38,420 nucleotides of DNA, taken from IMG/VR virus record IMGVR_UViG_3300032731_000382, positions 1-38,420 of that record, one strand, 5' to 3'. Origin of the DNA: a virus. Made by a program: the position numbers and the translations under genes. Every line of letters starts with the position of its first letter. Within the stretch, counting starts at the first letter, position 1. The notes under the pieces were generated by a model. The model worked only from the letters and a program-made list of their open reading frames with translations, was not told the origin of the DNA and ran no database searches. This document shows, in pieces, positions 5,052-35,512 of the stretch.

Positions 5052-5618
5052 GTGAAGATCCGAGACCGAATTAGGGAACTGCGGCGGGTCAAAGCCTCCG
5101 AGCTGTTGCCGCATCCGAAAAACTGGCGAACCCATCCAGAGGCCCAACAGGACGCCATGCGGGGCGTGCTGGCTGAGATCGGCTGGGCCGGCGCCGCGTT
5201 GGTCCGCGAGACGCCAGACGGCCTACAGCTCATTGACGGGCACCTCCGCGGCGACGTGGCTGGTGACGCCAAGATCCCGGTTCTCGTGCTGGACGTGACG
5301 GAAGAAGAGGCGCGGAAGATTCTGGCGACTCACGACCCTCTCGCTTCCATGGCCGAGGCCAACCAACAGGCCCTCGGCGAACTACTTGCCCAGATCGACA
5401 CAGAAAGCGAATCGTTGCAGGCGATGCTGGACGGGCTGGCGGAGGAGAACGGGATTGACCTTTGCGAGCCGGGGGCGGAGGAGCAGCCCGACACAAGCGA
5501 ACAGCTCGGCAACGTCGAATACCGGATCATTCTCACCTGCAAAACCGAACAGCAACAGCTCGAATTACTGACCGAATTCGGTGAAAGGGAGCTTGAATGC
5601 CAAGCATTGATATCGTAG
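5052..5618 (+). CDS. ParB-like nuclease-fold domain protein
   Basis: 188 residues, GTG start; an in-frame TGA at 5043 fixes the N-terminus close to this point. Residues 12-95 match the ParB/Srx-like fold: ASELLPHPKNWRTHPE near 15-30, then a helix with GVLAEIGWAGA, and LIDGHLRGDVA (60-70) with the DGHLR variant of the ParB DGHRR box, then IPVLVLDVTEEEA. The C-terminal third is an acidic helical region. In phages such domains act in DNA modification or as CTP- or nucleotide-dependent DNA-binding proteins, not only in partition. It overlaps the ABC-ATPase/GNAT gene by 22 bases, so the two products probably act together. Confidence 0.85.
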   Translation: MKIRDRIRELRRVKASELLPHPKNWRTHPEAQQDAMRGVLAEIGWAGAALVRETPDGLQLIDGHLRGDVAGDAKIPVLVLDVTEEEARKILATHDPLASMAEANQQALGELLAQIDTESESLQAMLDGLAEENGIDLCEPGAEEQPDTSEQLGNVEYRIILTCKTEQQQLELLTEFGERELECQALIS

Positions 5619-6802
5619 TCCAGACAGACGTATCGAAGTCGTCGCGCGTTCAGCAGTTGAGCGCGATGTTTGACGTGCCGCCACGGGAGTCGTCGGAGTG
5701 CCAATGGAAGTTCGACGCCCCTTTTGAGAAAGAAGACTGGCTGGTCGGGCTGATCGTGGGCCCGAGCGGAGCGGGAAAGACCACGGTGGCCCGTCAGCTC
5801 TTCGGCGATCATGTCGACGTGCCGATGGAGTGGGGCGGCAAGTCGGTGATCGACGACTTCTCTGCCGAGACTTCGATGGAGGACATCGCCGCGGCGTGTC
5901 AGGCGGTAGGGTTCAATACAATCCCGTCTTGGCTGCGACCGTTCCCTGTGCTGTCCACGGGAGAGCGGTTCCGTGTGGAGCTTGCTCGTCGACTGTTGGC
6001 GTGTGAACCTCCTGTTGTCGTCGATGAGTTCACCAGCGTGGTCGACCGCCAAGTGGCGAAGATCGGGGCCCATGCGGTGCAGAAATACGCGAGACGAGAG
6101 AAGCAGCAATTCGTGGCGGTGACGTGCCACTATGACGTGATCGACTGGCTGCAACCTGACTGGATCATCGAACCCGGTATTGGCAAGTTCGCCCGGAGGT
6201 CACTTCAACGACGCCCCGAGCTGCCAATCGAAATCGCCCGAGTGGCTCACCCGGCGTGGCGACTTTTCGCTCCATACCACTATCTGACGGCGAGTTTACA
6301 TCGTGCGGCGAATTGCTTCGTTCTGTTTGTCGATGGAGAGCCGGCGGCTTTCGCGGGGGTGTTGCATCGTCCGCACCCGAAGACCCGAAACCTTAAGGGG
6401 ATTAGTCGATTGGTGACGCTACCGGATTGGCAAGGGTTGGGGTTGGCGTTCGTGTTGGTGGATGTGCTAGGGGCCGCCCATAAGGCGATGGGGTATCGGT
6501 TGCATACTTATCCGGCGCACCCCGCGTTGATTCACGGGTTTGACAGATCGAAGAGGTGGGCGATGACGAAACGACCTGGCTTTAATGCGCCCGGTCGGTG
6601 GGCTGTGGCGGCAGGCGCGAGCAAGCGGGAGCGAAGTCATCTCCCCCGGTCAGCGCGTCCCTGCGCCACCTTCGCCTATGCCGCCGCCGGCATGGACCGA
6701 ACAGAAGCAGCCAAACTGACCGGCCTCCAGCCTTTCAAGACTTCGCGGGCCTATGTACCGGCCTCTCCAACCCCCGAAACTTCTCAAGCTGCGAGCGAGT
6801 GA
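5597..6802 (+). CDS. ABC-type ATPase fused to a GNAT domain, Mom-like DNA modification candidate
   Basis: 401 residues; ribosome site GAAAGGGAG precedes the ATG. Residues 45-195 are an ABC ATPase: Walker A GPSGAGKTT (55-63), signature LSTGE (119-123), Walker B VVVDE (140-144) and H-loop His178. No transmembrane segments are present, so it is not a transporter. Residues about 205-345 are a GNAT-like acyltransferase: APYHYLTASL, CFVLFVDGEPAAFAG, then RLVTLPDWQGLGLAF (271-285), which carries the acetyl-CoA loop. The layout recalls the phage Mu Mom family, a GNAT-fold group that makes an N6-carbamoylmethyl-type adenine modification; ABC fusions of this kind occur with ParB-like genes in phages. 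DNA modification here is inference. The C-terminal 60 residues are basic, and the 3' end overlaps a convergent HTH gene. Confidence 0.8.
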   Translation: MPSIDIVVQTDVSKSSRVQQLSAMFDVPPRESSECQWKFDAPFEKEDWLVGLIVGPSGAGKTTVARQLFGDHVDVPMEWGGKSVIDDFSAETSMEDIAAACQAVGFNTIPSWLRPFPVLSTGERFRVELARRLLACEPPVVVDEFTSVVDRQVAKIGAHAVQKYARREKQQFVAVTCHYDVIDWLQPDWIIEPGIGKFARRSLQRRPELPIEIARVAHPAWRLFAPYHYLTASLHRAANCFVLFVDGEPAAFAGVLHRPHPKTRNLKGISRLVTLPDWQGLGLAFVLVDVLGAAHKAMGYRLHTYPAHPALIHGFDRSKRWAMTKRPGFNAPGRWAVAAGASKRERSHLPRSARPCATFAYAAAGMDRTEAAKLTGLQPFKTSRAYVPASPTPETSQAASE

Positions 6803-6923
6803 TGGCCCAATTTCTGCCGATCTTCCGCCCGAGTCGCCCGTCCTGGCAGAGTTGCCGGACGCGGATCTCGGAGCGGTCGAGTTCGACAGCGGCCTCGGCG
6901 GTGGTGAGATATTCGGTGCTCAT
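6735..6923 (-). CDS. Excisionase-like helix-turn-helix protein
   Basis: 62 residues on the minus strand. The whole protein is a MerR/excisionase-type HTH: LTTAEAAVELDRSEIRVRQL is helix-turn-helix, DGRLGRKIGRNWAI is the wing, and SQLEKF is the last helix. Such proteins are DNA-binding directionality factors or small regulators. It is the last gene of the minus-strand cassette, 27 bases after the ASCH gene stop, with a weak AGGA ribosome site. Its 3' end overlaps the convergent ABC/GNAT gene by 68 bases, so transcription of one may interfere with the other. No integrase is visible, so a regulator acting on the local operator seems more likely than an excisionase. Confidence 0.8.
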   Translation of the reverse strand: MSTEYLTTAEAAVELDRSEIRVRQLCQDGRLGRKIGRNWAITRSQLEKFRGLERPVHRPAKS

Positions 6924-6950
6924 AATCCTAAGTCTATCGCTATCGACGGC

Positions 6951-7349
6951 TCAAGGCAAGTCGATTTCGTACAGCCCTTGCTTCCCTGACATCGGGACGG
7001 GCTTCGCCAACGGCTTGGGGTTTCGCAAGATCCAGCAGAACGGGCCGGTCGCGAGCGGATCGTCGGCCAGCCCCCATTCATCCTCGACGCCTGGGAGGTT
7101 TCGCGTACCGGGTTGCCACGGGACGACGGCGACCAGGTCGACGGTTCCCAGTACGGTTCCGCGGGTGACGTCGCCGGGCACGTCGAATCCGAGGGCTTCA
7201 AGAGTCGCTCGGCTGGTCGGGTCAAGGGACTGCCCGGCGTGGATCGCCAGGGGGCCTCGGTACGACGTCGACCAGGTTCGATTCTCGGCCGGTTTGAGAC
7301 CGGCGATGATCGCCCAGGCCCAGTATTGTCTGACGGTGAGGCATCTCAT
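6951..7349 (-). CDS. ASCH-domain protein
   Basis: 132 residues. The start at 7349 is chosen because GAGGAG lies 8 bases upstream; an ATG at 7364 is alternative. The N-terminus has the ASCH hallmark: LTVRQYWAWAIIAGLKPAENRTW, reading here as RQYWAWAI followed by ENRTW (residues 7-27), then YRGPLAIHAG. This is the PUA-like fold that binds nucleic acid or modified bases; some members (YqfB type) hydrolyse N4-acetylcytidine. Later GTVLGTVDLVAVV and GPFCWILRNPKPLAKPVP are the typical distal strands. It begins one base after the upstream gene stop on the minus strand, so it is co-translated. Beside a Mom-like gene it could read or trim modified bases; this is inference. Confidence 0.85.
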   Translation of the reverse strand: MRCLTVRQYWAWAIIAGLKPAENRTWSTSYRGPLAIHAGQSLDPTSRATLEALGFDVPGDVTRGTVLGTVDLVAVVPWQPGTRNLPGVEDEWGLADDPLATGPFCWILRNPKPLAKPVPMSGKQGLYEIDLP

Positions 7350-7350
7350 C

Positions 7351-7560
7351 TCAGAACTCCTCATCAGGGAAAGCAGCGACCAGTTCGCCGGTATCGCGCG
7401 ACGTCATCAACTCAAACTCTGCTCTGTCCATCGCTTGTCGGTACATCGATTCGGGCGAGGGCAGGGGCTCTCGAATGCTAAAGGCGATCCAGGCCACGCC
7501 GTTGTCATCGCGGGCACCTCGGAGTTTGTCGTAGACCTTTTGGGCGGGGGCGGGTTTCAT
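7351..7560 (-). CDS. Small acidic protein, first gene of the minus-strand cassette
   Basis: 69 residues from ATG at 7560, which has AGGAG 9 bases upstream. An ATG at 7602 would lie only a few bases from the predicted transcription start and has no ribosome site, so it is less likely. The sequence includes KVYDKLRGARDDNGVAW, then MYRQAMDRAEFELMTSRDTG and an acidic end (PDEEF). No family is recognised. It is translated just ahead of the ASCH gene, with a one-base gap. Confidence 0.65.
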   Translation of the reverse strand: MKPAPAQKVYDKLRGARDDNGVAWIAFSIREPLPSPESMYRQAMDRAEFELMTSRDTGELVAAFPDEEF

Positions 7561-7612
7561 CGTTTCAGCTCCTGTCGTTTCGTGGGTAACTGTGTTTCTC
7601 ATGTCTGTATTA

Positions 7613-8641: not shown

Positions 8642-9015
8642 ACATCCTGCACCGCATCTTCGGCAACCGCAGCCATGTCCCACCCCGCCCATGTCCTGAA
8701 CCACCCCCACGGCCCAAGACCAAGCCCGAGGCAACCATAGCCGGCCATCAGGTCACTCTCATGGCCATTCAGGAGCTGCCATCGACGGCGGTTCTGGTTG
8801 TGGACACGCCCCCCGCTGCCACCGAGGAGGATTGCGTACGGATTCGCGGTGTCCTTATGACTCGGCTAAACGTGCGTGACGTGCTGGTGTTCTGCGGCGG
8901 GGTGAAGCTGGCGGGGGTGTATGACGTGCAGGCTGTGGACCTGCGGTGTAGCGCGGATATACCATCTCCTCTGCCGAATAAAGAGACGCGAGACGGAGAT
9001 CCGCACCCACGGTGA
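8638..9015 (+). CDS. Phage hypothetical protein
   Basis: 125 residues. A proline-rich, basic N-terminus (PPRPCPEPPPRPKTKP, residues 15-30) leads into a compact alpha/beta region with TAVLVVDTPPAATEEDCVRIRGVLMTR and VRDVLVFCGGVKLAGVYD. The pattern is like a small Rossmann-type or beta-strand/helix unit but no known family is recognised. The ATG overlaps the previous stop, and its own stop overlaps the GTG of the large terminase, so the product is co-expressed with packaging genes. Confidence 0.6.
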   Translation: MNILHRIFGNRSHVPPRPCPEPPPRPKTKPEATIAGHQVTLMAIQELPSTAVLVVDTPPAATEEDCVRIRGVLMTRLNVRDVLVFCGGVKLAGVYDVQAVDLRCSADIPSPLPNKETRDGDPHPR

Positions 9016-10634
9016 GCACCCAAACCCTTAGCTACGATCTGCAAAAAATAATCCGGCTCCTGCCCGGATACGATCCCTTTGCGCAAGCTGGGGATTGCTG
9101 GTTCGACGAGGAGGCGGCGGCGTTCCATATTGGGTTCGTCGAGGATTGCTGCACGCACGTCAAGGGCAAGCTGGCGGGCAAGCCGCTCCTATTGGAGCCG
9201 TGGGAAAAAGCTATATTCGGCAACCTGGCCGGATGGAAGCGGCCGGACGGAACACGCCGGTACCGGGAGGCATTGATCTACATTCCCAGAGGCAATGCCA
9301 AGACCACCCTTGCGGCTGCGATGATCTGCACGGGGCTCTACATCGACCCCGAGCCCGGGGCGGATCTCTACTCATCGGCGGCCGAACGCGAACAGGCTCG
9401 GCTCTGTTTCGAGATCGTGACTGGCATGATCCGGAACGAGCCCTTCATGGAGCAACGGGCGGAACTCTACAAATATTCCATCGTAGTCGGCGACAAGACA
9501 TACAAGGCCGTGTCGGCAGAGGCGGGAACCAAACACGGCTACAACATCCAGATGGTCGTCAACGATGAGCTGCACGCCCACAAGACACGCGAGCTGACCG
9601 ACGTACTGATGACCGGCACGGGCAAGCGGGACCAACCGCTTGTGGTTCACTTAACCACGGCCGACTTCGAGCGAGAGGGGTCGATCTGCAACGAAAAGCA
9701 CGGCTACGCCTGCAAGGTGCGGGACGGGGTGATTGAGGACATGGCGTTTCTGCCAGTCATCTACGAGGCAAGCACCGATGACGACTGGACGGACCCGAAG
9801 GTGTGGGCGAAAGCAAACCCAAATCTTGGCGTATCGGTTCCGCTGGACTACATCGAGCGAGAGTGTCAACGGGCCCAAGACGATCCAACTTACGAGAACA
9901 CGTTCAAGCGATTGCATCTCGATATTAGGACCGAGCAGGCTTTCCGCTGGATGCCCATGGCCAAGTGGGACGCATGCACCGGCCTGGTCGACCCGGAGGC
10001 GCTCAAGGGGCGTGACTGTTGGGCCGGCTTGGATCTTGCGAGCGTGTCGGACCTGGCCGCCCTGGTGCTGGCGTTCCCTCTTGACGATGGCGAATACGCT
10101 GTCTTGCCGTGGTTCTGGTGCCCTGGTGACACGGCGACCGAACGCGAACGGAAGGACCGTGTGCCATACGTCACCTGGTCGCAGCAAGGGCTCTTGGAGC
10201 TGACGCCGGGCAACAGCACCGACTACCGATTCATCCGTCGCCGACTGAACGAACTGGCGAAGGACTACAAGATACAAGAGATAGCCTACGATCCATGGAA
10301 CGCGACGACGCTTGTCCAGCAGCTTGGAGACGAGGATGGCTTCAACGTGGCGGAACACCGACAAGGGACCGTGTCGATGAATGAGCCCATGAAGATGGTC
10401 ATGCGGCTCGTACGAGAGAAGAAGCTGCGGCACGGTGGCCACCGAATCCTACGATGGAACGCGAACAACATCTCTGCCCGGTCGGACCCGAGCGACAACG
10501 TGCGGCCGGACAAGGAACATTCAGCAGACAAGATCGACGGCATGGTGGCAACGATCATGGCGGTAGGGCGAGCGATGGCAGCCCCGCGGCCGAAGCGGTC
10601 GCCGTATGCGACCAGGGGATTTCTGACGACATGA
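9012..10634 (+). CDS. terL: Phage terminase large subunit
   Basis: 540 residues, GTG start overlapping the previous stop. This is the packaging motor ATPase and headful or cos nuclease of the Terminase_1 group. Walker A is PRGNAKTT (92-99), Walker B is MVVNDELH (181-188) with the D-E pair at 185-186, and HLTTAD (213-218) is the coupling motif. The nuclease domain begins with AGLDLASVSDLAA (338-350), giving Asp341 and Asp347, and ends with DKIDGMVA near 513-520, the third acidic site. WKRPDG and LLLEPWEKAIFGNLAGW are conserved N-terminal features. Length is normal. It works with the small subunit at 7770 and the portal at 11098. Confidence 0.95.
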   Translation: MSTQTLSYDLQKIIRLLPGYDPFAQAGDCWFDEEAAAFHIGFVEDCCTHVKGKLAGKPLLLEPWEKAIFGNLAGWKRPDGTRRYREALIYIPRGNAKTTLAAAMICTGLYIDPEPGADLYSSAAEREQARLCFEIVTGMIRNEPFMEQRAELYKYSIVVGDKTYKAVSAEAGTKHGYNIQMVVNDELHAHKTRELTDVLMTGTGKRDQPLVVHLTTADFEREGSICNEKHGYACKVRDGVIEDMAFLPVIYEASTDDDWTDPKVWAKANPNLGVSVPLDYIERECQRAQDDPTYENTFKRLHLDIRTEQAFRWMPMAKWDACTGLVDPEALKGRDCWAGLDLASVSDLAALVLAFPLDDGEYAVLPWFWCPGDTATERERKDRVPYVTWSQQGLLELTPGNSTDYRFIRRRLNELAKDYKIQEIAYDPWNATTLVQQLGDEDGFNVAEHRQGTVSMNEPMKMVMRLVREKKLRHGGHRILRWNANNISARSDPSDNVRPDKEHSADKIDGMVATIMAVGRAMAAPRPKRSPYATRGFLTT

Positions 10635-26214: not shown

Positions 26215-27267
26215 ATGCACACCCACGTATACCTGATCGGCTACCCAAGCGAAGTCGGCGGGGCGAATACACAGGTCTGGCACTGGCTCAAACTGATGAG
26301 GCGTTTCGGTGTTGAGACCACGGTGGTGCCGACGTGGCGGGGTAATGAGGAATGGGACAAGCGAATCCGGGCCATCGGCTGCAAGATCCTGGTCCCCACT
26401 GATCGCACGTTTCCCGTCCCCGATGGTGCGGTGTGCGTGTCGTTCTGCAATTCCCACTTCGAGAGCAAGGCCCACCAGCTACAGGCCCGGGGCTGCCGGC
26501 TGATTTATGTCCCGTGCATGAACTACCTAAACGGAACGCTCCTCAACCATCACCAGAAATACGGGCCGTTTGATCGGTATGTTCTCCAGTCCCACTCGCA
26601 ACAGAAGTGGCTGTCGTCTCCGCTTTCTGATTTCGGTGTCAAGCCGGAACAGTGCCACGTAATCCGCGGGGCCTTCGACTGGTCCGAGTTCTCTTTCGAG
26701 CCACGGCGTCGATGGCCCGACGCCCCATTTATCGTTGGCCGGCTGTCGCGTCCGGATGCTTTCAAATTCTCGTGGCGTACGTGGGATCTGTTTGGGTGCA
26801 TCCGAAAAGAGATCCCGACAACGAAAGTGCGGATCATGGGCTGGCACAAGCGAGTCGAGCAGCACATCGGCGAGCCGCCTGGCTGGGTAGAGGTGCTCCC
26901 GGCCAAGAGTGAGTCGGCGGAGGACTTCCTCCGCTCGCTCCACTGTATGTGCCAAGTCGGTGGGGATCACTGGGATGAGCCACGGTCAACGGAGAACTGG
27001 CCCCGCGTGGGGCTGGAGGCGATGGCGTCTGGGGTGCCGGTCGTCGCGGAGTCCCGCGGCGGGTGGCCAGAGATGATCGAACACGGCGAAACTGGCCTCT
27101 TGGGGCACAGCATCGACGAGATAGCCTCTCACGTCGTCAGGCTTGGCCGTGACGAGGCGTTACGGATGCGGTTGACAAGACAGGCCCACGACGCCCTCCG
27201 GGGCTCTCTGGCCGAGCCAGGGGGCTTGTGGGCTGGATGGGAGAAGGTATTCGAGTCGGTAGCATGA
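26215..27267 (+). CDS. Glycosyltransferase, GT4-like (GT-B fold)
   Basis: 350 residues. The N-terminal Rossmann half has HVYLIGYPSEVGGANTQVWH, with the G-G-A-N loop that contacts the acceptor side. The C-terminal half holds FIVGRLSRPDAFKF (around 172-185) and the donor-binding stretch NWPRVGLEAMASGVPVVAES followed by GGWPEMIEHGETGLL (261-296), with the E-x7-E pattern of GT4 (E268 and E286 region). It should transfer a sugar from a nucleotide-sugar donor; donor and acceptor are unknown. It is the first of eight consecutive modification genes and overlaps the sulfotransferase-like gene by four bases. Confidence 0.88.
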   Translation: MHTHVYLIGYPSEVGGANTQVWHWLKLMRRFGVETTVVPTWRGNEEWDKRIRAIGCKILVPTDRTFPVPDGAVCVSFCNSHFESKAHQLQARGCRLIYVPCMNYLNGTLLNHHQKYGPFDRYVLQSHSQQKWLSSPLSDFGVKPEQCHVIRGAFDWSEFSFEPRRRWPDAPFIVGRLSRPDAFKFSWRTWDLFGCIRKEIPTTKVRIMGWHKRVEQHIGEPPGWVEVLPAKSESAEDFLRSLHCMCQVGGDHWDEPRSTENWPRVGLEAMASGVPVVAESRGGWPEMIEHGETGLLGHSIDEIASHVVRLGRDEALRMRLTRQAHDALRGSLAEPGGLWAGWEKVFESVA

Positions 27268-27893
27268 AACTCTATCAGCGGATCTTGATTTGTGGAGCGG
27301 CCAGACAGGGAAACACCCTTTTGATGCATCTGTTAGGGACTGGCTTCCGGGGCGTCCGGATATGCCACGGCGAGCGGGTGCCCAGTAGTGAGGCCAGCCG
27401 GCCAGGCCGCATGTTGATCGGCAAGCGACCGGGCTCGATTGTGGCCGTCGACCAGTTGCTCGGGCAGTGGGATATTGGAATCATCTTTACCATGCGCGAC
27501 CCCCGCGACGTGATGACCTCGCGCCACACGGGCAACGAGTATTGGCGACGTGCCCAACAGTGGGCAGACCGCGCAGCGATTGTGCGACAGCACAGCCAAC
27601 ACCCACGGGCCATGGTCGTTCGGTTCGAGCGGCTGATTCGTCACCCAGAGAAGGTGCAAGAGGAGATCGGCTGCAAGTTCAACCTGATCCCACAGCGGCC
27701 GTTTTCTGAATGCCATCAGCATTTTGACGAGGCGGACGCGGAAGGGGTTCACGCGATGCACGGGGCCCGGCCACTGGACCGATCTAGAATCGGACATTGG
27801 CGAGAGACGGACGAAAAGCGGCGGATTGTATCCGACGCGATTCGCGATATACCGGACCTTGAATTCTGGATGAAAGAGTGGAGCTATGTTTGA
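27264..27893 (+). CDS. Sulfotransferase-like protein
   Basis: 209 residues from ATG at 27264, overlapping the glycosyltransferase stop (ATGA). The N-terminus, RILICGAARQGNTLLMHLL, is a PAPS 5'-phosphosulfate-binding-type loop (residues 10-20). IIFTMRDPRDVMTSRH (73-88) is the 3'-phosphate-binding motif, RDPRDVxxSxxH. VVRFERLIRHPEKV near 125-138 is the typical later element. The protein therefore probably transfers sulfate from PAPS to a hydroxyl, most likely on the sugar made by the neighbouring genes. PAPS synthesis genes are not in the window, so the host must supply it. Confidence 0.82.
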   Translation: MKLYQRILICGAARQGNTLLMHLLGTGFRGVRICHGERVPSSEASRPGRMLIGKRPGSIVAVDQLLGQWDIGIIFTMRDPRDVMTSRHTGNEYWRRAQQWADRAAIVRQHSQHPRAMVVRFERLIRHPEKVQEEIGCKFNLIPQRPFSECHQHFDEADAEGVHAMHGARPLDRSRIGHWRETDEKRRIVSDAIRDIPDLEFWMKEWSYV

Positions 27894-28533
27894 CGATCTC
27901 CGAGCGAAGTATCCCTGGCCTACCGAAAAGCCCGACGTGCCGCCAAAGCTCGTAAAAGGTGGCGGGATCTTCGGGTGGTTCCACGGCGAGAACCAGGTGG
28001 TTCTGAAAACGCTGTTGACTCCCGAGACCAAGCTGGTTGTGGAGCTTGGGGCGTTTCTGGGATTGTCAACCAAGTATCTGGCGGAGTGGGCACCCAACGC
28101 CACAATCATCACAATCGACCACTGGAAAGGCTCGGCCGAACACCAGAACCCAAAAGCATACGGTGACATTCTCGGCGTGATGTTCGAGAAGTTCTGTGTC
28201 CACCTCTGGGACTATCGGGACCGCATAATTCCGATGCGGACCACGACGATTGAGGGGTTGTTGGAATTGCGGGCCGTTTTGCCGGTCGCCCCGGCGGTGG
28301 TCTACATCGACGCCGGCCACGAAACCGGCCCGGTGTATGCCGATGCCATGTTGAGCATGGCCAATTGGCCCGACGCCCATATCGTCGGCGATGACGGGTG
28401 CTGGACAAGCGTCATGGAGGCGCACAAGAACATGCGGCCCATGCTTCCGGAGGGGCGTGAGCTGTACTGCAATGCCGTCTGTTGGGAGATACCACCGAGG
28501 GGCGTTGCGCGGACCTGGGAGAAACCATCGTGA
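27886..28533 (+). CDS. Class I SAM-dependent methyltransferase (Methyltransf_24-like)
   Basis: 215 residues, overlapping the sulfotransferase-like gene by eight bases. Motif I is VVELGAFLGLSTKYLAE (51-67), with the acidic end of strand 2 at TIITIDHW (73-80) and a later strand VVYIDAGHE (138-146), which in the O-methyltransferase group TylF/CmcI-like holds the metal or substrate. GDDGCW (168-173) follows. These features suggest an O-methyltransferase acting on a sugar or related hydroxyl. Substrate is unknown. It is followed by another glycosyltransferase with a GTGA overlap. Confidence 0.82.
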   Translation: MFDDLRAKYPWPTEKPDVPPKLVKGGGIFGWFHGENQVVLKTLLTPETKLVVELGAFLGLSTKYLAEWAPNATIITIDHWKGSAEHQNPKAYGDILGVMFEKFCVHLWDYRDRIIPMRTTTIEGLLELRAVLPVAPAVVYIDAGHETGPVYADAMLSMANWPDAHIVGDDGCWTSVMEAHKNMRPMLPEGRELYCNAVCWEIPPRGVARTWEKPS

Positions 28534-29552
28534 GGCTACGATTTCTATACGACGACGCGGAGCACGCCACGCCGCTCCTTCGAGTGCATGACATCCTCGC
28601 GGGGCAAGGCGTCGACCTCGTGGCCGAGGAAACGCACAGCGCGGAGTCGGTTGTGCGACTGGTCGAGCCGGATACCGACGTTCTGCTGATTCACCAGACG
28701 CTAATGAGCGACGATGCTTTGGACTGCGGGAAGCCGATCGTGATCCTAGAGCGGGTCGACGGTGCTCAACTGGCCGCGTCTCGACGATGGTTGTCTGCTC
28801 CGAACGTTGTGGCGGTATTCAAGGGCTACAGTTACCGACAGCCCGACTTGCACAACGTATATCGCGGTCGCTACCACGCCCACCTATTGAAGCAAGCCGG
28901 CTTGACGATCACTCCCGGCAGCCAGAGCAGCGCGGTTGCCGGCATGCCCTCCCCTCAGCTCTCGACCGCCGAGCTAGAGAAGATCCGCACGGGATACGGC
29001 TTCGGGGCGTATACCAAAATGGACACACCACGGGGGCAGATGGTCGACTTTGCCTCACAGCGCGATTTCGACCTGCACTGTGTGGGGTATATCGACTACA
29101 AGGGCTCAGAGATCGAGAAGCACCGGCTGGCGGCAATGGACGCGGCCGAGGCCCATGAGGCAGCCAACCCAGAGACAACGGTTATCGGTCGCGGTCGCCC
29201 CCTTCGCCCGGCCGAATATCTGTCGACCATGTTTTCGAGCAAGACGGTTGTTTCGCCGTGGGGGTGGGGGGAGGCGTGTCACCGGGACTATGAAGCGTGG
29301 CTGCTTGGGGCGGTGCTCATCAAGCCGACCATGGAGCACGTCGCCACATGGCCGGACATTTACCGACCGAACGAAACATATATTCCGTGCCGAATGGATT
29401 TCTCTGATCTGCCTGAGATCGTCGCGCGTGTTGCGGCCGAGTGGCCCGACTGGCGACAGAGACGGGAGACGGCGCGGGAGTTGGCTCTGGAAGCAGGAAA
29501 CCCTAAGCGAGTGGCGCGACGAATCGCGGGCACTCTTGAGAAGGTACTATGA
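28530..29552 (+). CDS. Glycosyltransferase, exostosin/GT1-like
   Basis: 340 residues from GTG at 28530, overlapping the previous stop. The first half has MRLRFLYDDAEHATPLLRVHDILA and a DVLLIHQTLMS strand. The C-terminal half has FDLHCVGYIDYKGSEIEKHR and the conserved stretch VVSPWGWGEACHRDYEAWLLG (240-260) followed by AVLIKP, which is the donor-site signature of exostosin-like and related GT-B proteins, often in O-antigen or glycan clusters. Likely role is transfer of one sugar of the product. It is coupled to the next methyltransferase by an ATGA overlap. Confidence 0.78.
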   Translation: MRLRFLYDDAEHATPLLRVHDILAGQGVDLVAEETHSAESVVRLVEPDTDVLLIHQTLMSDDALDCGKPIVILERVDGAQLAASRRWLSAPNVVAVFKGYSYRQPDLHNVYRGRYHAHLLKQAGLTITPGSQSSAVAGMPSPQLSTAELEKIRTGYGFGAYTKMDTPRGQMVDFASQRDFDLHCVGYIDYKGSEIEKHRLAAMDAAEAHEAANPETTVIGRGRPLRPAEYLSTMFSSKTVVSPWGWGEACHRDYEAWLLGAVLIKPTMEHVATWPDIYRPNETYIPCRMDFSDLPEIVARVAAEWPDWRQRRETARELALEAGNPKRVARRIAGTLEKVL

Positions 29553-30124
29553 TAACCACAGAACAAGCGGGGAAGGTAAAGGCATTGTGCGCCAAGCACT
29601 CCGCCCACCGACTGTCAAAATACCGCGACTGGCGAATGGCGTGCCAGCTTGCCGCGTATCATGCCACACTGCTCGGCCTCCGCGATAGTCCGCCGCTCAA
29701 GATCCTAGACTTGGGCGGCGGCTTGTCCTACTTCGCGGCAGAGTGCAAATCACTGGGGCACGATGCTACGACGATGGATCTGCCGGAGGAGTTGCCGGAG
29801 GCTGTGGCCGAGGCGCTCGGAGTGCGGTACATACCCCACATGATCGTTTCCCGCGTCCCGTTGCCTGGGACTGAGACATACGATCTTATCACGGCGATGC
29901 GGCTGAACCTCACGGAGCCGGATCGATGGCAGTGGGACGAATACCGGATATTTGCCGACGAGATCCTTGGGCGTCTCAACCCGGGCGGGCGTTGGTTCAT
30001 GGACCCCAACCGTGGCGAGAACGTGGCGTTTGTCCTGGACGCGGCGAAGTGGAGAGAGATTCTTGGGGACCAGGTGACGGCCGAAAATCCGAGCCGCTCA
30101 ACCGTATTGATAACGAAACGCTAA
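29549..30124 (+). CDS. Class I SAM-dependent methyltransferase
   Basis: 191 residues. Motif I is KILDLGGGLSYFAAECKSLG (51-70), and ATTMDLPEELPEA is the end of strand 2 with the acidic residue that binds ribose. YDLITAMRLNLTEPDRW and LNPGGRWFMDPN complete the pattern. It resembles small-molecule or sugar methyltransferases; N-, O- or C-methylation cannot be told. It differs from the methyltransferase at 27886, so the cluster could place two distinct methyl groups. Starts with ATG overlapping the previous stop by four bases. Confidence 0.8.
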   Translation: MITTEQAGKVKALCAKHSAHRLSKYRDWRMACQLAAYHATLLGLRDSPPLKILDLGGGLSYFAAECKSLGHDATTMDLPEELPEAVAEALGVRYIPHMIVSRVPLPGTETYDLITAMRLNLTEPDRWQWDEYRIFADEILGRLNPGGRWFMDPNRGENVAFVLDAAKWREILGDQVTAENPSRSTVLITKR

Positions 30125-30139
30125 AGACGGCGGTGTACT

Positions 30140-30841
30140 ATGCAAATCGATATCGCCATCGTGGCATGGCCAAACCATCCGGGGCGGTGGCTGTGCTTTC
30201 AGAAAACCCTAGCCTCATTGAAAGAGAATCTCTCGGCAACGGGCCACACGCTTCGCTATGTGTGTTCCTCCGAGAGCATGCAGGACCCAAAACACCAATG
30301 GTACGGTGAGGAGTTGCGGCAACTGTGCGAGACCGAGGGGGTGCTGCTGAACTTTCGGCCCGGACCGCCGGGGCTGGGGGAAAACATGAATGCGGCTCTC
30401 CGGCTGTGCTCCGGGGATTTTACTCTCCTGGTTCAAGATGATCGCCCGCTGCTGAAGCCTCTCGATTTAGCAGACGGTATCGCATACACGCAAGCCAACC
30501 AGGCAGTGGACTTGATTCGCTACTCCTGGCCCTACGGGCGGTCACGACTTGTGTTGCATCCCGACGGTTGGCGGCGAATTGACGTGGCGGGCCCGTGGCC
30601 ATACGGCGATGATCCGCACTTGCGAAGACAGAACTTCACGGAGAAGTGGGGCGAGTATCGAGAGAACGAGCGGCATGGAACATCAGAAGGCGACATGATT
30701 AGGCGGCTTGTTCGTGGCTCCGCCCTGATCGTGGCGGCCGATGATATCTATTTTGGACACAATGCTTCGGGCTGTCCTTCCGTTGTGGATGACGAGCGAT
30801 ACGAAAGGAATCTACGAGATGAGTGGCGAGAACACGATTGA
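30140..30841 (+). CDS. GT-A-like glycosyltransferase, tandem copy 1
   Basis: 233 residues. IDIAIVAWPNHPGRWLCF begins a nucleotide-sugar-binding strand and helix, and GLGENMNAALRLCSGDFTLL leads into VQDDRPLL (98-105), where the DD pair is where a DxD metal site should lie. DLIRYSWP and GPWPYGDDPHLRR follow, the second being nearly identical in the next gene. The length is short for GT2 (usually 250-350), so a minimal or divergent GT-A fold is proposed. It overlaps the next gene by 23 bases. Confidence 0.72.
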   Translation: MQIDIAIVAWPNHPGRWLCFQKTLASLKENLSATGHTLRYVCSSESMQDPKHQWYGEELRQLCETEGVLLNFRPGPPGLGENMNAALRLCSGDFTLLVQDDRPLLKPLDLADGIAYTQANQAVDLIRYSWPYGRSRLVLHPDGWRRIDVAGPWPYGDDPHLRRQNFTEKWGEYRENERHGTSEGDMIRRLVRGSALIVAADDIYFGHNASGCPSVVDDERYERNLRDEWREHD

Positions 30842-31532
30842 CGTAGCTATGGTGACGTGGCCGAACCATCCGGCACGCCTCGAATACTTCGAGCGGATCG
30901 TCAAATCATTACGTGACGGCTTGACGGCCAGCCGCCACGAATTGCGGTTCTTCTGTTCGGCCGAATCACAACGCGACCCAGACCGGACATGGTGCGGGCA
31001 TGACGTGGAACACTTGTGCGACGAATACGATATCTCGCTCTCGTGGCGTGCCGAAACGGCCAACCTCGGCGCGAACATGAACGCCGCGATGGCGATGTGT
31101 ACGGCCCCCATGATCCTCTTGCAACAGGACGATTGGCGACTCGCCTACCCACTGGACTTGTCGCCGGGTGCGGACTTCTTGGCAGAGGCCCACACCGTTG
31201 ATCTGCTTCGGTACTCGTGGCCCGAAGACCCCGCTATGCTGCCGACGATCGAGGATCGCCGCGGAGGGTGGGAGAACGGAGGCTGGCGACAAATCGACAT
31301 CGACGGAAAATGGCCATACGGCGATGACCCACACCTGCGCCGGCGGGACTTTATGCACAAGTTCGGCTGGTATTATGAAGGCGGCGGCCACGGCACTGCA
31401 TCAAGTACGCTGATGCGGTTCCTGGTCAAGCAGCGAGCCACAATCGCGGCTGTCGACAAGGTGCATTTCAAGCACTGCGGGCCGGTGTCGTCGGTTATCA
31501 ATGATGCAAGAAAGAGGCGTGTGCTACGGTGA
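30819..31532 (+). CDS. GT-A-like glycosyltransferase, tandem copy 2
   Basis: 237 residues from ATG at 30819, with AAAGGA upstream. It shares its layout with copy 1: TIDVAMVTWPNHPARLEYF, then FCSAESQRDP, NLGANMNAAMAMCTAP, a QQDDW box (102-106), LLRYSWP, IDGKWPYGDDPHLRRRDF and GHGTASSTLMRFLV. The two are clear paralogs that arose by duplication, with differences over the acceptor-facing middle part. It presumably adds a second residue or acts on another acceptor. It overlaps the next gene by four bases (GTGA). Confidence 0.72.
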   Translation: MSGENTIDVAMVTWPNHPARLEYFERIVKSLRDGLTASRHELRFFCSAESQRDPDRTWCGHDVEHLCDEYDISLSWRAETANLGANMNAAMAMCTAPMILLQQDDWRLAYPLDLSPGADFLAEAHTVDLLRYSWPEDPAMLPTIEDRRGGWENGGWRQIDIDGKWPYGDDPHLRRRDFMHKFGWYYEGGGHGTASSTLMRFLVKQRATIAAVDKVHFKHCGPVSSVINDARKRRVLR

Positions 31533-32440
31533 CTCAGTATCGCGTTCACATTTGCTACGATGTCGAAGGCTGGTGTTATCACAACCGGGCTCTGGCGATT
31601 CAGAAATACGCAACCGAGGGGATGGTGGTGACGATCGGATCGTCATCCATTGCCTTGAGGGCTCCGCTTGATTACGACCTGGTGCTGCAACTCTGCTATG
31701 GGCAGACGGAGCGGATGCGCAGGCACCGCGACCGCACGGCTCCTAATACTACGCTCGTGGCCGGCTACAATACGGGATGGGGCTATCGCCTGGAACACTT
31801 CAGCTACCTGCAAGAGCATGCGGACCATGTAGTTTTCAACAATACCGAAAACTGGGAGAAGCATGGGCGGCCAGGTCGCACCAGTTGCATCAGCAACGGA
31901 GTGGACCGTGACATTTTTCGCGTGACCGTGCCGCCCTCCGAGAGAGCGCCCCGCGTCCTATGGACGGGCTCGGAGTTTCACAAAGAAAACCATGATGTCA
32001 AGGGGTATGCAGGGCTCTTGGGGCCACTTGCCGAGCGGTTGCGGGGTGCGGGAATCGCCACCGATTACTGGCTGGTAAACTCCCACGGACCGGAGCGAAA
32101 AACGGCAGGGGAGATGGCAGCCTGGTACAACACGGGCACGGTCTACGTCGTGGCATCCGAGATGGAAGGCACACCGAACCCCGCTTTAGAAATGGCCAGT
32201 TGTGGTGGCGTGGTGTGCTCTACCCGGGTGGGTAATATGCCAGAGTTGATTGAGCACGGTATCAACGGCGCGCTGGTCGATCGGACTCTAGACGATTTGT
32301 ATGCCGGGCTCGTGCTGTGTTGCGAACGCTACCAAGAGATGGCAAAGGCGATGGAAGGCCGTATCCGGTTTTGGGATTGGCAATATCGAGCGGCCCGATA
32401 CTACGCGCTATTCCGGAGACTCATCGACGGGACTCCGTAG
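31529..32440 (+). CDS. Glycosyltransferase, GT4-like (GT-B fold)
   Basis: 303 residues, GTG start overlapping the previous stop. The N-terminal half has YRVHICYDVEGWCYHNRALA and HVVFNNTENWEKHG, then SNGVDRDIF (122-130), the typical hinge before the donor half. The C-terminal half contains APRVLWTGSEFHKENHDVKG and SEMEGTPNPALEMASCGG followed by VVCSTRVGNMPELIEHGING (211-248), the E-x7-E donor motif. It closes the eight-gene cluster; its stop lies only two bases from the convergent prepilin stop. Confidence 0.88.
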   Translation: MTQYRVHICYDVEGWCYHNRALAIQKYATEGMVVTIGSSSIALRAPLDYDLVLQLCYGQTERMRRHRDRTAPNTTLVAGYNTGWGYRLEHFSYLQEHADHVVFNNTENWEKHGRPGRTSCISNGVDRDIFRVTVPPSERAPRVLWTGSEFHKENHDVKGYAGLLGPLAERLRGAGIATDYWLVNSHGPERKTAGEMAAWYNTGTVYVVASEMEGTPNPALEMASCGGVVCSTRVGNMPELIEHGINGALVDRTLDDLYAGLVLCCERYQEMAKAMEGRIRFWDWQYRAARYYALFRRLIDGTP

Positions 32441-32442
32441 CC

Positions 32443-33516
32443 TCACCTCACCACTACCTGGTGATTGTCGATATTGTCGAATGAGTCGAGTGAGTCGGGT
32501 GTTCGTTTCGGGCCAGACGCCGGGTCGGTAGGATCGTCGGGCGGGTCCATGGCTGTTACCGAGGAGTTCCGGCTATCGACGGGTATCCCGGCTTCATTGG
32601 GATCGGGACTTGCGGCCAATCCGAAGAAGTAGGGGTTTTGGAGGTCGGCGAACTGATACCGCCCCTCGAAGTTGATGTCGTAGATCCCGTCCGGCCCGGC
32701 GGAGTAGATGTAGGGGACTAGCCGGTATGCGTACTCGTGGAGGTTCCGGCTGTCGAACGGGTCGTGGTCGGTGCCGGAGGCGTTCTCCGCGGCTACGATG
32801 TCTCGCTCGAATATCTCGGTCCCGGTGGAATCGAAGAAAACTTGAGCCTGGAGCGGTGAACCCACAAGCCCGGGAGCCCAGCGCAGAAACATGATCGGAT
32901 TTCCCCAGCCGTCTTGGAACTCGGGCAGGCCGTCACTGTCGGCGTCACCGATTTCGTTTTCGTGGAACTGGTCTCGCGCGTCGGAGCCGCCCGCCATTGA
33001 GACTATCATGTAGAGGCACTCGGCCGAACTGTAGCGGTTGAGCCGCTCGGGGCCCTCGCCGTGAAAGGTGCCAGCGCCGTACGTCGCACCAACCGTGGTC
33101 CGGCTCCGCTCGTACATTCGCACGTAGGCCATGGATAGTGCTGATCTGGCTATCGTTGTGCCGGCCGTGTCGATCTCGGCGACCGGTGGTGTCGCAACGT
33201 CGGCCCACCGATCCGGCATCTCCATTCGCATCACGTCCCGCAAGGCCGTCAGCCTAGCCGTGGCAAGCAGTCGCGACCATTCCTTGGGGTCGCTGCGGTC
33301 GACACTGTCGAAGGCGATTGGCACTCGTCGCGTGCGATACGAGTCGTAGAGATTCGTCACCACCCCGTCGATCTTGCGGATGGTGGTCCTGGTCTTCGTT
33401 TTTCTGGCCGCCTCGCGAGAGACATGGACCGCGCCCAGCACCAGGGCCGCGAGTATCCCGATAATGGTGACGGAGACCAGCAACTCGATCAGCGTGAATC
33501 CACGTCGGCATCTCAT
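32443..33516 (-). CDS. Type II secretion / type IV pilin-like prepilin (GspG-like)
   Basis: 357 residues, minus strand, with AGGGGAGG seven bases before the ATG. The N-terminus is a class III prepilin signal, RRGFTLIELLVSVTIIGILA: cleavage after Gly6, Glu11 at mature position 5, and a hydrophobic helix (about 12-30). The rest is a long acidic domain with GDADSDGLPEFQDGWGNPIMF, a GspG-like feature. Such long GspG-like proteins are frequent in Planctomycetota. This could be host flank beyond the phage, or cargo carried by the element. The tight 2-bp convergence with the phage glycosyltransferase stop is unusual for a host junction. Confidence 0.85.
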   Translation of the reverse strand: MRCRRGFTLIELLVSVTIIGILAALVLGAVHVSREAARKTKTRTTIRKIDGVVTNLYDSYRTRRVPIAFDSVDRSDPKEWSRLLATARLTALRDVMRMEMPDRWADVATPPVAEIDTAGTTIARSALSMAYVRMYERSRTTVGATYGAGTFHGEGPERLNRYSSAECLYMIVSMAGGSDARDQFHENEIGDADSDGLPEFQDGWGNPIMFLRWAPGLVGSPLQAQVFFDSTGTEIFERDIVAAENASGTDHDPFDSRNLHEYAYRLVPYIYSAGPDGIYDINFEGRYQFADLQNPYFFGLAASPDPNEAGIPVDSRNSSVTAMDPPDDPTDPASGPKRTPDSLDSFDNIDNHQVVVR

Positions 33517-33895: not shown

Positions 33896-35512
33896 TCACG
33901 CAAACCGCTTCTGCTTGTCCACCGGCTTCTTCTCCGCCTTGGGGGCCTTTTTGAACGTCCGCACGTCCCTAGTTAGCGGCATGTCCACGCGCTTCCCCGA
34001 AAGCAGCTCCCCAACCGTGAGGAGTTGCAGCCTGGGGTGCTTGGTGCCCCATGGGGAGTCGTAGAATCCCGCGCTGGCGGCCTCCGTCCTCATTGGCTTT
34101 GTCGGCTTCTGCATGCTGAGCAAAACGCCAATCGCAGCATCTTCTCGGTCGATGACGCCACGCAGGTCCCGCACATAGGGTGCGTGTAGCTTGCCTGCCT
34201 TGACGGAAAAAACCACCTGCTTGGTCTTGGCCCCCTTGGCTTCATCGTGGAAGTAGAGGCGACCGTCGATACCTTTGTCGGCTCCCTTCTTCTGCTCGAC
34301 GGGCCGAGCCCCAACCAGACCGAGGGCCCACCACTGGAATTGCCATGGGTCTTCCGCTGCCAAAGCTTCGGCATCTGGTGCGGAAGTAGGCTCGCCAACA
34401 ACTTCATAGGTCGTATTGATCGCTTCTCCGAATGCACTCTGGAGGCGGTGCTTGATGAGAGTCATTGCTAGATGGGTAACGTCAATCCCGATCCATTGGC
34501 GGTGCATTCTCTGGGCAACAGCAATGGCGGTTCCACAACCACAGAACGGATCAAGTACAGTATGCCCCTCGCATGACGATGCTTTGATGATCCGGTCGAG
34601 CAACGCTTCAGGCTTCTGCGTTGGATAACCCAGACGCTCGGCAGCCTTGGCATTGATTGGGGGGATGTCCGTCCATATATCTTGGATAGGGCTGCCCTTA
34701 GCGTTCTCTTGATACATCTTCAGCCGAGGCATTGTCCCGTGCTTGGGCCAATAGATGTCCCCGGCGGCGTCCAGCTCTTCCAGCTTCTCAATCGTGTACT
34801 TCCAGTGTCCTCCCTTCGCCGTGATGTCGATGTTTCGCCACGTGTGTCCCGAGGAACCTCTTCGTGTCCCGGTTGCGTGGAGCGTTACGGGGTAGAACTT
34901 GCGTCCCCGGTCGTCCACCGCGCTGTATCGTTTGCGAATATACTCCTCATCGCGGATTAACTCTGCATTCCACAAATAGTCGTCCGAACGGCTGTAGAAG
35001 AGAATCACATCATGCACCGGCCCAAACCGCCTTGCAGAGCCATGGGCACCGGTCCTTTTCCACACTATCTCGTTTCTGAAATTGGCTGGTCCGAACACCG
35101 CGTCCATCAACATCTTCAGGTAATGGCTTGCCGTCGAATCGCAATGGAGATAAATGCTACCCGTTGGGTTCAGGGCCCTGCGTAGCTCAACCAGCCTCGG
35201 GGCCATCATAGACAGATAGGCGAGCATGTCGCTGTCGCCCAACGCTTGGCGAAATGCCAGCATGACAGAAGCAGTTTGACCGCCCGCCTCCACAACCTCC
35301 TCAAGGGCAGCCGCCGATGCTTGGTCCCATTGCCAGGTGTCCTCGAATGCCTTTATCTGTCCGGCGGCTCGCGCACCGTCCTGTTCGGCAAAGAGGACGT
35401 TGTAGGTGGCGTTGGAGTTGAACGGGGGATCAAGATAGACGAGATCGACCGACTCGGAGTCAATGTGCCGACGGAGAACGTCCAGGTTGTCGCCGTAGTA
35501 GAGGGTGTTCAT
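33896..35512 (-). CDS. DNA methyltransferase with C-terminal nuclease-like domain
   Basis: 538 residues, minus strand, GAGGTG upstream of the ATG. Motif IV comes first, VYLDPPFNSNATY (25-37), and motif I later, VLDPFCGCGTA (319-329), with YPTQKPEALLDRII (296-309) as motif X region; this beta-type order with DPPF suggests N6-adenine or N4-cytosine methylation. After residue 390 a second domain begins, QWWALGLVGARPVEQ, with KGADKGIDGRLYF (409-421) and KQVVFSVKAG (431-440), an Mrr-like PD-(D/E)xK layout with Asp416 and Lys438 but Ser where an acidic or Gln residue is usual. Whether the second domain cuts DNA is unclear. A short gene upstream on the same strand may be its partner. Confidence 0.88.
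   Translation of the reverse strand: MNTLYYGDNLDVLRRHIDSESVDLVYLDPPFNSNATYNVLFAEQDGARAAGQIKAFEDTWQWDQASAAALEEVVEAGGQTASVMLAFRQALGDSDMLAYLSMMAPRLVELRRALNPTGSIYLHCDSTASHYLKMLMDAVFGPANFRNEIVWKRTGAHGSARRFGPVHDVILFYSRSDDYLWNAELIRDEEYIRKRYSAVDDRGRKFYPVTLHATGTRRGSSGHTWRNIDITAKGGHWKYTIEKLEELDAAGDIYWPKHGTMPRLKMYQENAKGSPIQDIWTDIPPINAKAAERLGYPTQKPEALLDRIIKASSCEGHTVLDPFCGCGTAIAVAQRMHRQWIGIDVTHLAMTLIKHRLQSAFGEAINTTYEVVGEPTSAPDAEALAAEDPWQFQWWALGLVGARPVEQKKGADKGIDGRLYFHDEAKGAKTKQVVFSVKAGKLHAPYVRDLRGVIDREDAAIGVLLSMQKPTKPMRTEAASAGFYDSPWGTKHPRLQLLTVGELLSGKRVDMPLTRDVRTFKKAPKAEKKPVDKQKRFA

Follow-up and report, generated by a model that had tools for sequence, protein, structure and literature searches.

The principal finding of this study is that the gene for a ParB-like protein and the following gene, coding for an ABC ATPase fused to a GNAT acyltransferase (ABC-GNAT), form an old mobile cassette, which occurs in many unrelated bacterial viruses and often lies upstream of the terminase genes. 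It was recognized in a viral record of 38,420 bases, the whole of which is called here the window. We consider it somewhat more probable than the opposite (about 0.55) that this cassette marks the phage's own DNA with an acyl group, late and before packaging. In the mechanism that we propose, the ParB/Srx protein would engage DNA, possibly in a nucleotide-dependent manner, while the ABC half of the fusion protein would dimerise on ATP and gate or position the enzyme on DNA. Acyl-CoA would serve as donor of an acyl group, in the simplest case acetyl, which the GNAT half would then attach to a base at an exocyclic amine. Such a mark, introduced in the late phase ahead of packaging, could shield the phage DNA from restriction, and an ASCH protein, where present, might be an accessory binding the mark; the scheme involves no eraser of the YqfB type. 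The relevant features of the window are the following.

5052-5618, plus strand: ParB/Srx-domain gene, 188 aa, GTG start; matches PHROG ParB families (best E 1e-11)
5597-6802, plus strand: ABC-GNAT fusion gene; Pfam ABC_tran and Acetyltransf_1, both above cut-offs
5597-6202, plus strand: ABC-ATPase half, residues 1 to about 202 of ABC-GNAT (Pfam, residue conservation, AF2)
6203-6802, plus strand: GNAT acyltransferase half, residues about 203-401 of ABC-GNAT (Pfam Acetyltransf_1, AF2 model of the half)
6735-6923, minus strand: HTH_17 ORF, excisionase-like, 62 aa (Pfam HTH_17, E 2e-8)
6951-7364, minus strand: ASCH-domain ORF, ASC-1-like, 137 aa (Pfam ASCH exactly at the cut-off)
7351-7602, minus strand: ORF of 83 aa
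7770-8240, plus strand: TerS, terminase small subunit (Terminase_4, E 3.5e-13); genomic context
9012-10634, plus strand: TerL, terminase large subunit (TerL_nuclease, E 4e-53); genomic context

An earlier note on this DNA had described a ParB-like gene overlapping an ABC-ATPase/GNAT fusion, with ASCH and HTH genes tail-to-tail with it and terminase genes downstream, and this layout was confirmed. The ParB and ABC-GNAT reading frames, which share 22 nt, are both real as judged from PHROG and Pfam matches. The ASCH and HTH ORFs, like the 83-aa ORF, are on the minus strand and convergent with ABC-GNAT, the 3' ends of the HTH ORF and ABC-GNAT overlapping by 68 nt, and both terminase genes were recovered by profile matches.

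According to its sequence and predicted structure, ABC-GNAT is an intact, two-domain protein. It is matched over its full length by phrog_11143 (E 5e-94), a PHROG without an assigned function. The first half has both the fold and the complete set of motifs of an ABC ATPase, namely Walker A (GPSGAGKT), the LSxGE-type signature (LSTGE), Walker B with its glutamate (DE), D-loop and H-loop, and residues G55, S57, G58, G60, K61, L119, S120, G122, D143, E144, D150 and H178 are invariant in 49 relatives. In the AF2 model (mean pLDDT 88), residues 1-204 form a domain resembling ABC nucleotide-binding domains (Z about 14) and residues 207-364 one resembling GNAT enzymes (Z about 14). The GNAT half was also folded separately, Foldseek with the full protein being dominated by ABC transporters, and the result was the same (GNAT chains up to Z 14.1). 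Besides the GNAT fold, this half bears the acyl-CoA pyrophosphate loop (PDWQGLG), an HY motif (H228-Y229) and the invariant R271. A loop of the PDxQGxG type was present in 49 of 49 relatives, and this invariance indicates that acyl transfer matters. In one phage contig two ABC-GNAT genes are arranged in tandem (L039:5995-9252), as they are also in L040-L043 and L047.

The GNAT half had previously been described as Mom-type, and this assignment did not survive. No match to the Pfam Mom family PF25680 was found for it at E<=1, while Mu Mom scores 253 bits. The profile-profile alignment with Mom gave a probability of 1.9% and did not extend beyond the initial strands, near the HY motif that both possess. 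Most Mom proteins carry PxNSES at the position of the acyl-CoA loop; NSES occurs in 0 of 49 GNAT halves, in which the loop is canonical. When predicted viral structures were searched, Mom proteins took ranks 10 and 41 in a list containing many ordinary phage GNATs. Membership in the Mom family was therefore rejected on the basis of the missing PF25680 match, the 1.9% probability and the PDxQGxG loop. What the GNAT half shares with Mu Mom is the GNAT fold and the HY motif near the domain start; it differs in having PDxQGxG instead of PxNSES and a fused ABC ATPase. The earlier note had named loss of the acyl-CoA site, or of insertions specific to Mom, as grounds against its proposal; the site is retained and the Mom signature is absent. 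Since the GNAT half is not of the Mom type, Mom chemistry should not be assumed, and its loop sequence makes a conventional acyl-CoA donor the likelier alternative.

The conserved unit is the pair of ParB and ABC-GNAT. After grouping of the viral ABC-GNAT loci at 80% identity, ParB was found directly upstream of ABC-GNAT in 57 of 63 groups, some of those lacking it being contigs which start inside the gene. The overlaps were mostly in the same +1 frame and measured exactly 22 nt in 24 of these groups. Bacterial genomes replicated the viral count, ParB adjoining ABC-GNAT in 51 of 58 groups, with carriers mostly in Planctomycetota and some in Actinomycetes and Proteobacteria. The same gene order, with a terminase gene downstream inside the retrieved stretch, occurs in the cultured phages P335 (Lactococcus), MismyG (Streptococcus), Jace (Rhodococcus), LE3 (Leptospira), Pmp13 (Pasteurella) and Sisko (Gordonia); in P335 and MismyG ABC and GNAT are separate genes. 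It is this gene order that suggests a coupling of the putative modification to packaging. Among the genome groups with enough sequence, a downstream terminase was detected in at least 22 of 42, a lower bound as few TerL profiles were used, and a proportion of only about one half would speak against the proposed marking of DNA before packaging.

The ParB protein of the window has a GxxR-type motif (D62-G63-H64-L65-R66), of which G63 is conserved in 100% and R66 in 73% of 52 cassette ParBs, the corresponding values in 41 ParB-methylase fusions being 100% and 97%. Its relatives match PF02195; the window protein itself gave no PF02195 match in the Pfam search. It does match phrog_498, a ParB-methyltransferase family. 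Profile searches, Pfam and PHROG among them, revealed no HTH family match in its 188 residues; it therefore lacks the KorB-type HTH for DNA binding that in a partition ParB (ParABS) follows the ParB domain. On sequence grounds it is probably a DNA- or NTP-binding partner of a modifying enzyme.

An indication that DNA is the target comes from the exchange of enzymes behind this ParB. Phages with a TerL related to that of the window were surveyed at 46 loci having >=3.5 kb of sequence ahead of TerL, near-duplicates kept in; of the 44 ParB-domain ORFs found there, 40 carry a fused DPPY methylase and precede the terminase. Pfam N6_N4_Mtase (PF01555) was confirmed in one of these fusions (L109), and N6_N4_Mtase was found also in phage FP_Lagaffe. 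These proteins share with the window the ParB subfamily and the place upstream of terminase, and differ in transferring methyl instead of acyl and in being one polypeptide. Some Mom genes have the same ParB partner: in Microbacterium phage Antuna and Arthrobacter phage Wyborn, the reading frame overlapped by ParB is that of a genuine Mom (PF25680, E 1e-46 and 7e-59, respectively), and the cassette ParB profile matches the two ParBs at E 3e-38 and 2e-41. By these profile matches, one ParB subfamily is common to three enzymes, methylase, Mom and ABC-GNAT, two of which are known DNA modifiers, and this partner exchange supports DNA as the ABC-GNAT target.

A separate observation concerns Antuna, in which a tRNA-Gly gene of opposite orientation comes directly after the ParB-Mom pair (L204:3469-4728). 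The group that Mom puts on adenine is glycinamide-like, which makes this neighbourhood curious, yet it may be due to chance.

One could alternatively suppose that the GNAT half acylates a protein, such as host polymerase, terminase, capsid or ParB, with the ABC half as a nucleotide switch, the whole being a regulator of takeover or packaging. The solved folds closest to the modelled GNAT half do include the protein N-acetyltransferases RimI and Naa50, which also weighs against DNA marking, and a phage GNAT acetylating host RNA polymerase (Rac) is known, as quoted in PMC7824862. GNAT folds, on the other hand, are alike whatever the substrate, the ParB partner is common to DNA methylases and true Mom, and the cassette spans very different hosts and terminases. 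We thus regard protein acylation as rather unlikely. A somewhat smaller chance is given to a conflict system, similar to restriction-modification or serving superinfection exclusion, in which ParB/Srx would be a nuclease or NTPase and ABC-GNAT would provide the protective modification. ParB/Srx proteins can indeed have nuclease or NTPase activity (PMC10853773; for GmrSD, PMC4619093), so that a targeting role of ParB is no necessity, and here writer and cutter would be neighbours in a single operon of overlapping genes. However, this ParB matches no PADLOC defence family, and the ABC half gives only a partial PADLOC match to mad3, confined to the stretch of the signature and Walker B. Moreover, methylases form single chains with the same ParB, and defence genes are not usually situated next to late packaging genes.

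It seems improbable that ParB and ABC form mainly an SMC-like or ParABS-like organiser of DNA, which would assist packaging or segregation while GNAT played a minor regulatory part. Gene order beside terminase would agree with this, as would the fact that ABC and ParB are both DNA-dynamics modules in general, but the ABC half has only about 200 aa and no coiled-coil arm in the AF2 model, ParB is devoid of an HTH domain, and the acyl-CoA loop is invariant. Returning to the marking of phage DNA, a more specific version of it may be put forward tentatively. A ParB-guided, ATP-gated GNAT might install an as yet unseen acylated base, e.g. N-acetylated adenine or cytosine, using ordinary acyl-CoA, with ASCH as a dedicated reader; this would be one case of a general phage scheme, a single ParB subfamily bringing methylase, Mom or ABC-GNAT to DNA shortly before its packaging.

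A separate problem is the role of the ASCH protein. Its Pfam score equals the cut-off (21.2 bits in both cases); a profile built from its relatives matches ASC-1 ASCH structures with E 1e-24, and both the Pfam and the profile results place it in the ASCH superfamily. Of 50 viral records with the cassette, 21 contained Pfam ASCH, compared with 0 of 50 TerL-related records, the hosts of this control set being unmatched to those of the cassette set (Fisher p 6.6e-8). The ASCH cluster in viral groups lies downstream of and convergent with ABC-GNAT in 16 of 19 cases (cluster median 65 nt), and in bacterial-genome groups ASCH is close and convergent in 11 of 14; a scan of viral contigs seeded with a single ASCH sequence gave only 2 loci. 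On the ABC-GNAT tree, well-supported branches require at least 7 changes of the convergent-ASCH state, and its carriers do not cluster, a pattern that fits repeated gain but likewise frequent loss. Among the matches listed, cultured phages with an ASCH gene of this type are mostly outside the ABC-GNAT list, and ASCH should thus be regarded as an optional partner.

According to the earlier note, ASCH could read or remove the modified base. As a recurrent convergent partner it remains a candidate for the former; removal by the YqfB route appears unlikely. YqfB, an ac4C amidohydrolase with catalytic Lys-Thr-Arg-Glu, needs Thr24 as nucleophile (PMC6972931). The window protein shares with it the ASCH domain and the conserved Lys and Arg (K24 and R29), whereas the catalytic Thr is replaced by Glu27. 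K-x-x-E-x-R is present in 16 of 16 aligned cassette-associated ASCH proteins, with K24, E27 and R29 invariant, and a YqfB-like eraser is thus unsupported. Because the YqfB nucleophile is missing and the profile resembles ASC-1, binding is likelier than removal, and ASCH is probably a reader or binder. In another contig (L046:8087-9346, minus strand), an ASCH domain forms the C-terminal part of a 419-aa ORF beside an ABC-GNAT cassette; the N-terminal part of this ORF contains a cysteine cluster.

The HTH gene, which had been counted as the fourth component of the set, was seen only in the window and in a near-identical contig among the viral and bacterial-genome neighbourhoods surveyed, and was dismissed as a module member. 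From its sequence it looks like an ordinary excisionase/MerR-type regulator. The proposed survey of gene neighbourhoods for all four genes thus upheld the ParB pair, found ASCH recurrent but optional, and removed HTH.

A phage system of ABC ATPase and GNAT was predicted to acylate a DNA base by Iyer et al. in 2013, as restated in PMC7824862, where Tenacibaculum phage pT24 serves as the example. ABC-GNAT of the window can be aligned with both the ABC gene and the GNAT gene of pT24 (33.5% over residues 6-334), the match being placed by phage and not by the cited accession, and by this homology the two belong to the same gene family. They differ in that the window has a single chain and a ParB gene; beside the pT24 pair, no match was found with the cassette ParB profile used. 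Our core interpretation, that a DNA base is acylated, therefore repeats a published prediction, and the support for a DNA target from the ParB exchange is new. DNA modification, as the earlier note had it, stays the best reading, strengthened by this exchange, qualified for ASCH and with Mom chemistry unsupported. We found no report in the literature of the ABC-GNAT product, predicted since 2013.

A useful analogue may be TmcA/NAT10, RNA cytidine acetyltransferases in which an ATPase is joined to a GNAT domain and which acylate the exocyclic amine of a base, giving N4-acetylcytidine. TmcA (2zpa) was in the Foldseek list of ABC-GNAT, and NAT10 appeared weakly in the profile search (E 0.36). The ATPase of these enzymes is helicase-like, not ABC, and their substrate is RNA, hence ABC-GNAT is compared with them as to the way of working and is not claimed as a family member; by analogy, we propose that ATPase and GNAT are coupled in a similar manner.

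The existence of cultured carriers (P335, MismyG, LE3, Jace) makes the ABC-GNAT product directly measurable. Moreover, since methylase, Mom and ABC-GNAT replace one another behind one ParB, it is suggested that phage 'ParB-like' proteins, for which present annotations give partition or nuclease functions, serve more generally as partners of DNA-modifying enzymes.

Several other features of the window deserve mention. A second DNA methylase gene, N6_N4_Mtase with a Mrr-like/inactive-REase C-terminal domain, lies near the record end (33896-35512, minus strand). Downstream of the structural genes there is a run of glycosyltransferase-, sulfotransferase- and methyltransferase-like genes (26215-32440, plus strand), an unusual cargo for a genome of siphovirus size. 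The pseudopilin-like gene at 32443-33516 (minus strand), with an N-terminal methylation motif, perhaps represents host DNA at a prophage edge, and may be noted beside the fact that many ABC-GNAT relatives are in Planctomycetota genomes. Finally, a 15-nt tandem repeat at 2430-2486 (3.8 copies) codes for NGGLV repeats at the C-terminus of a Laminin_G_3 protein.
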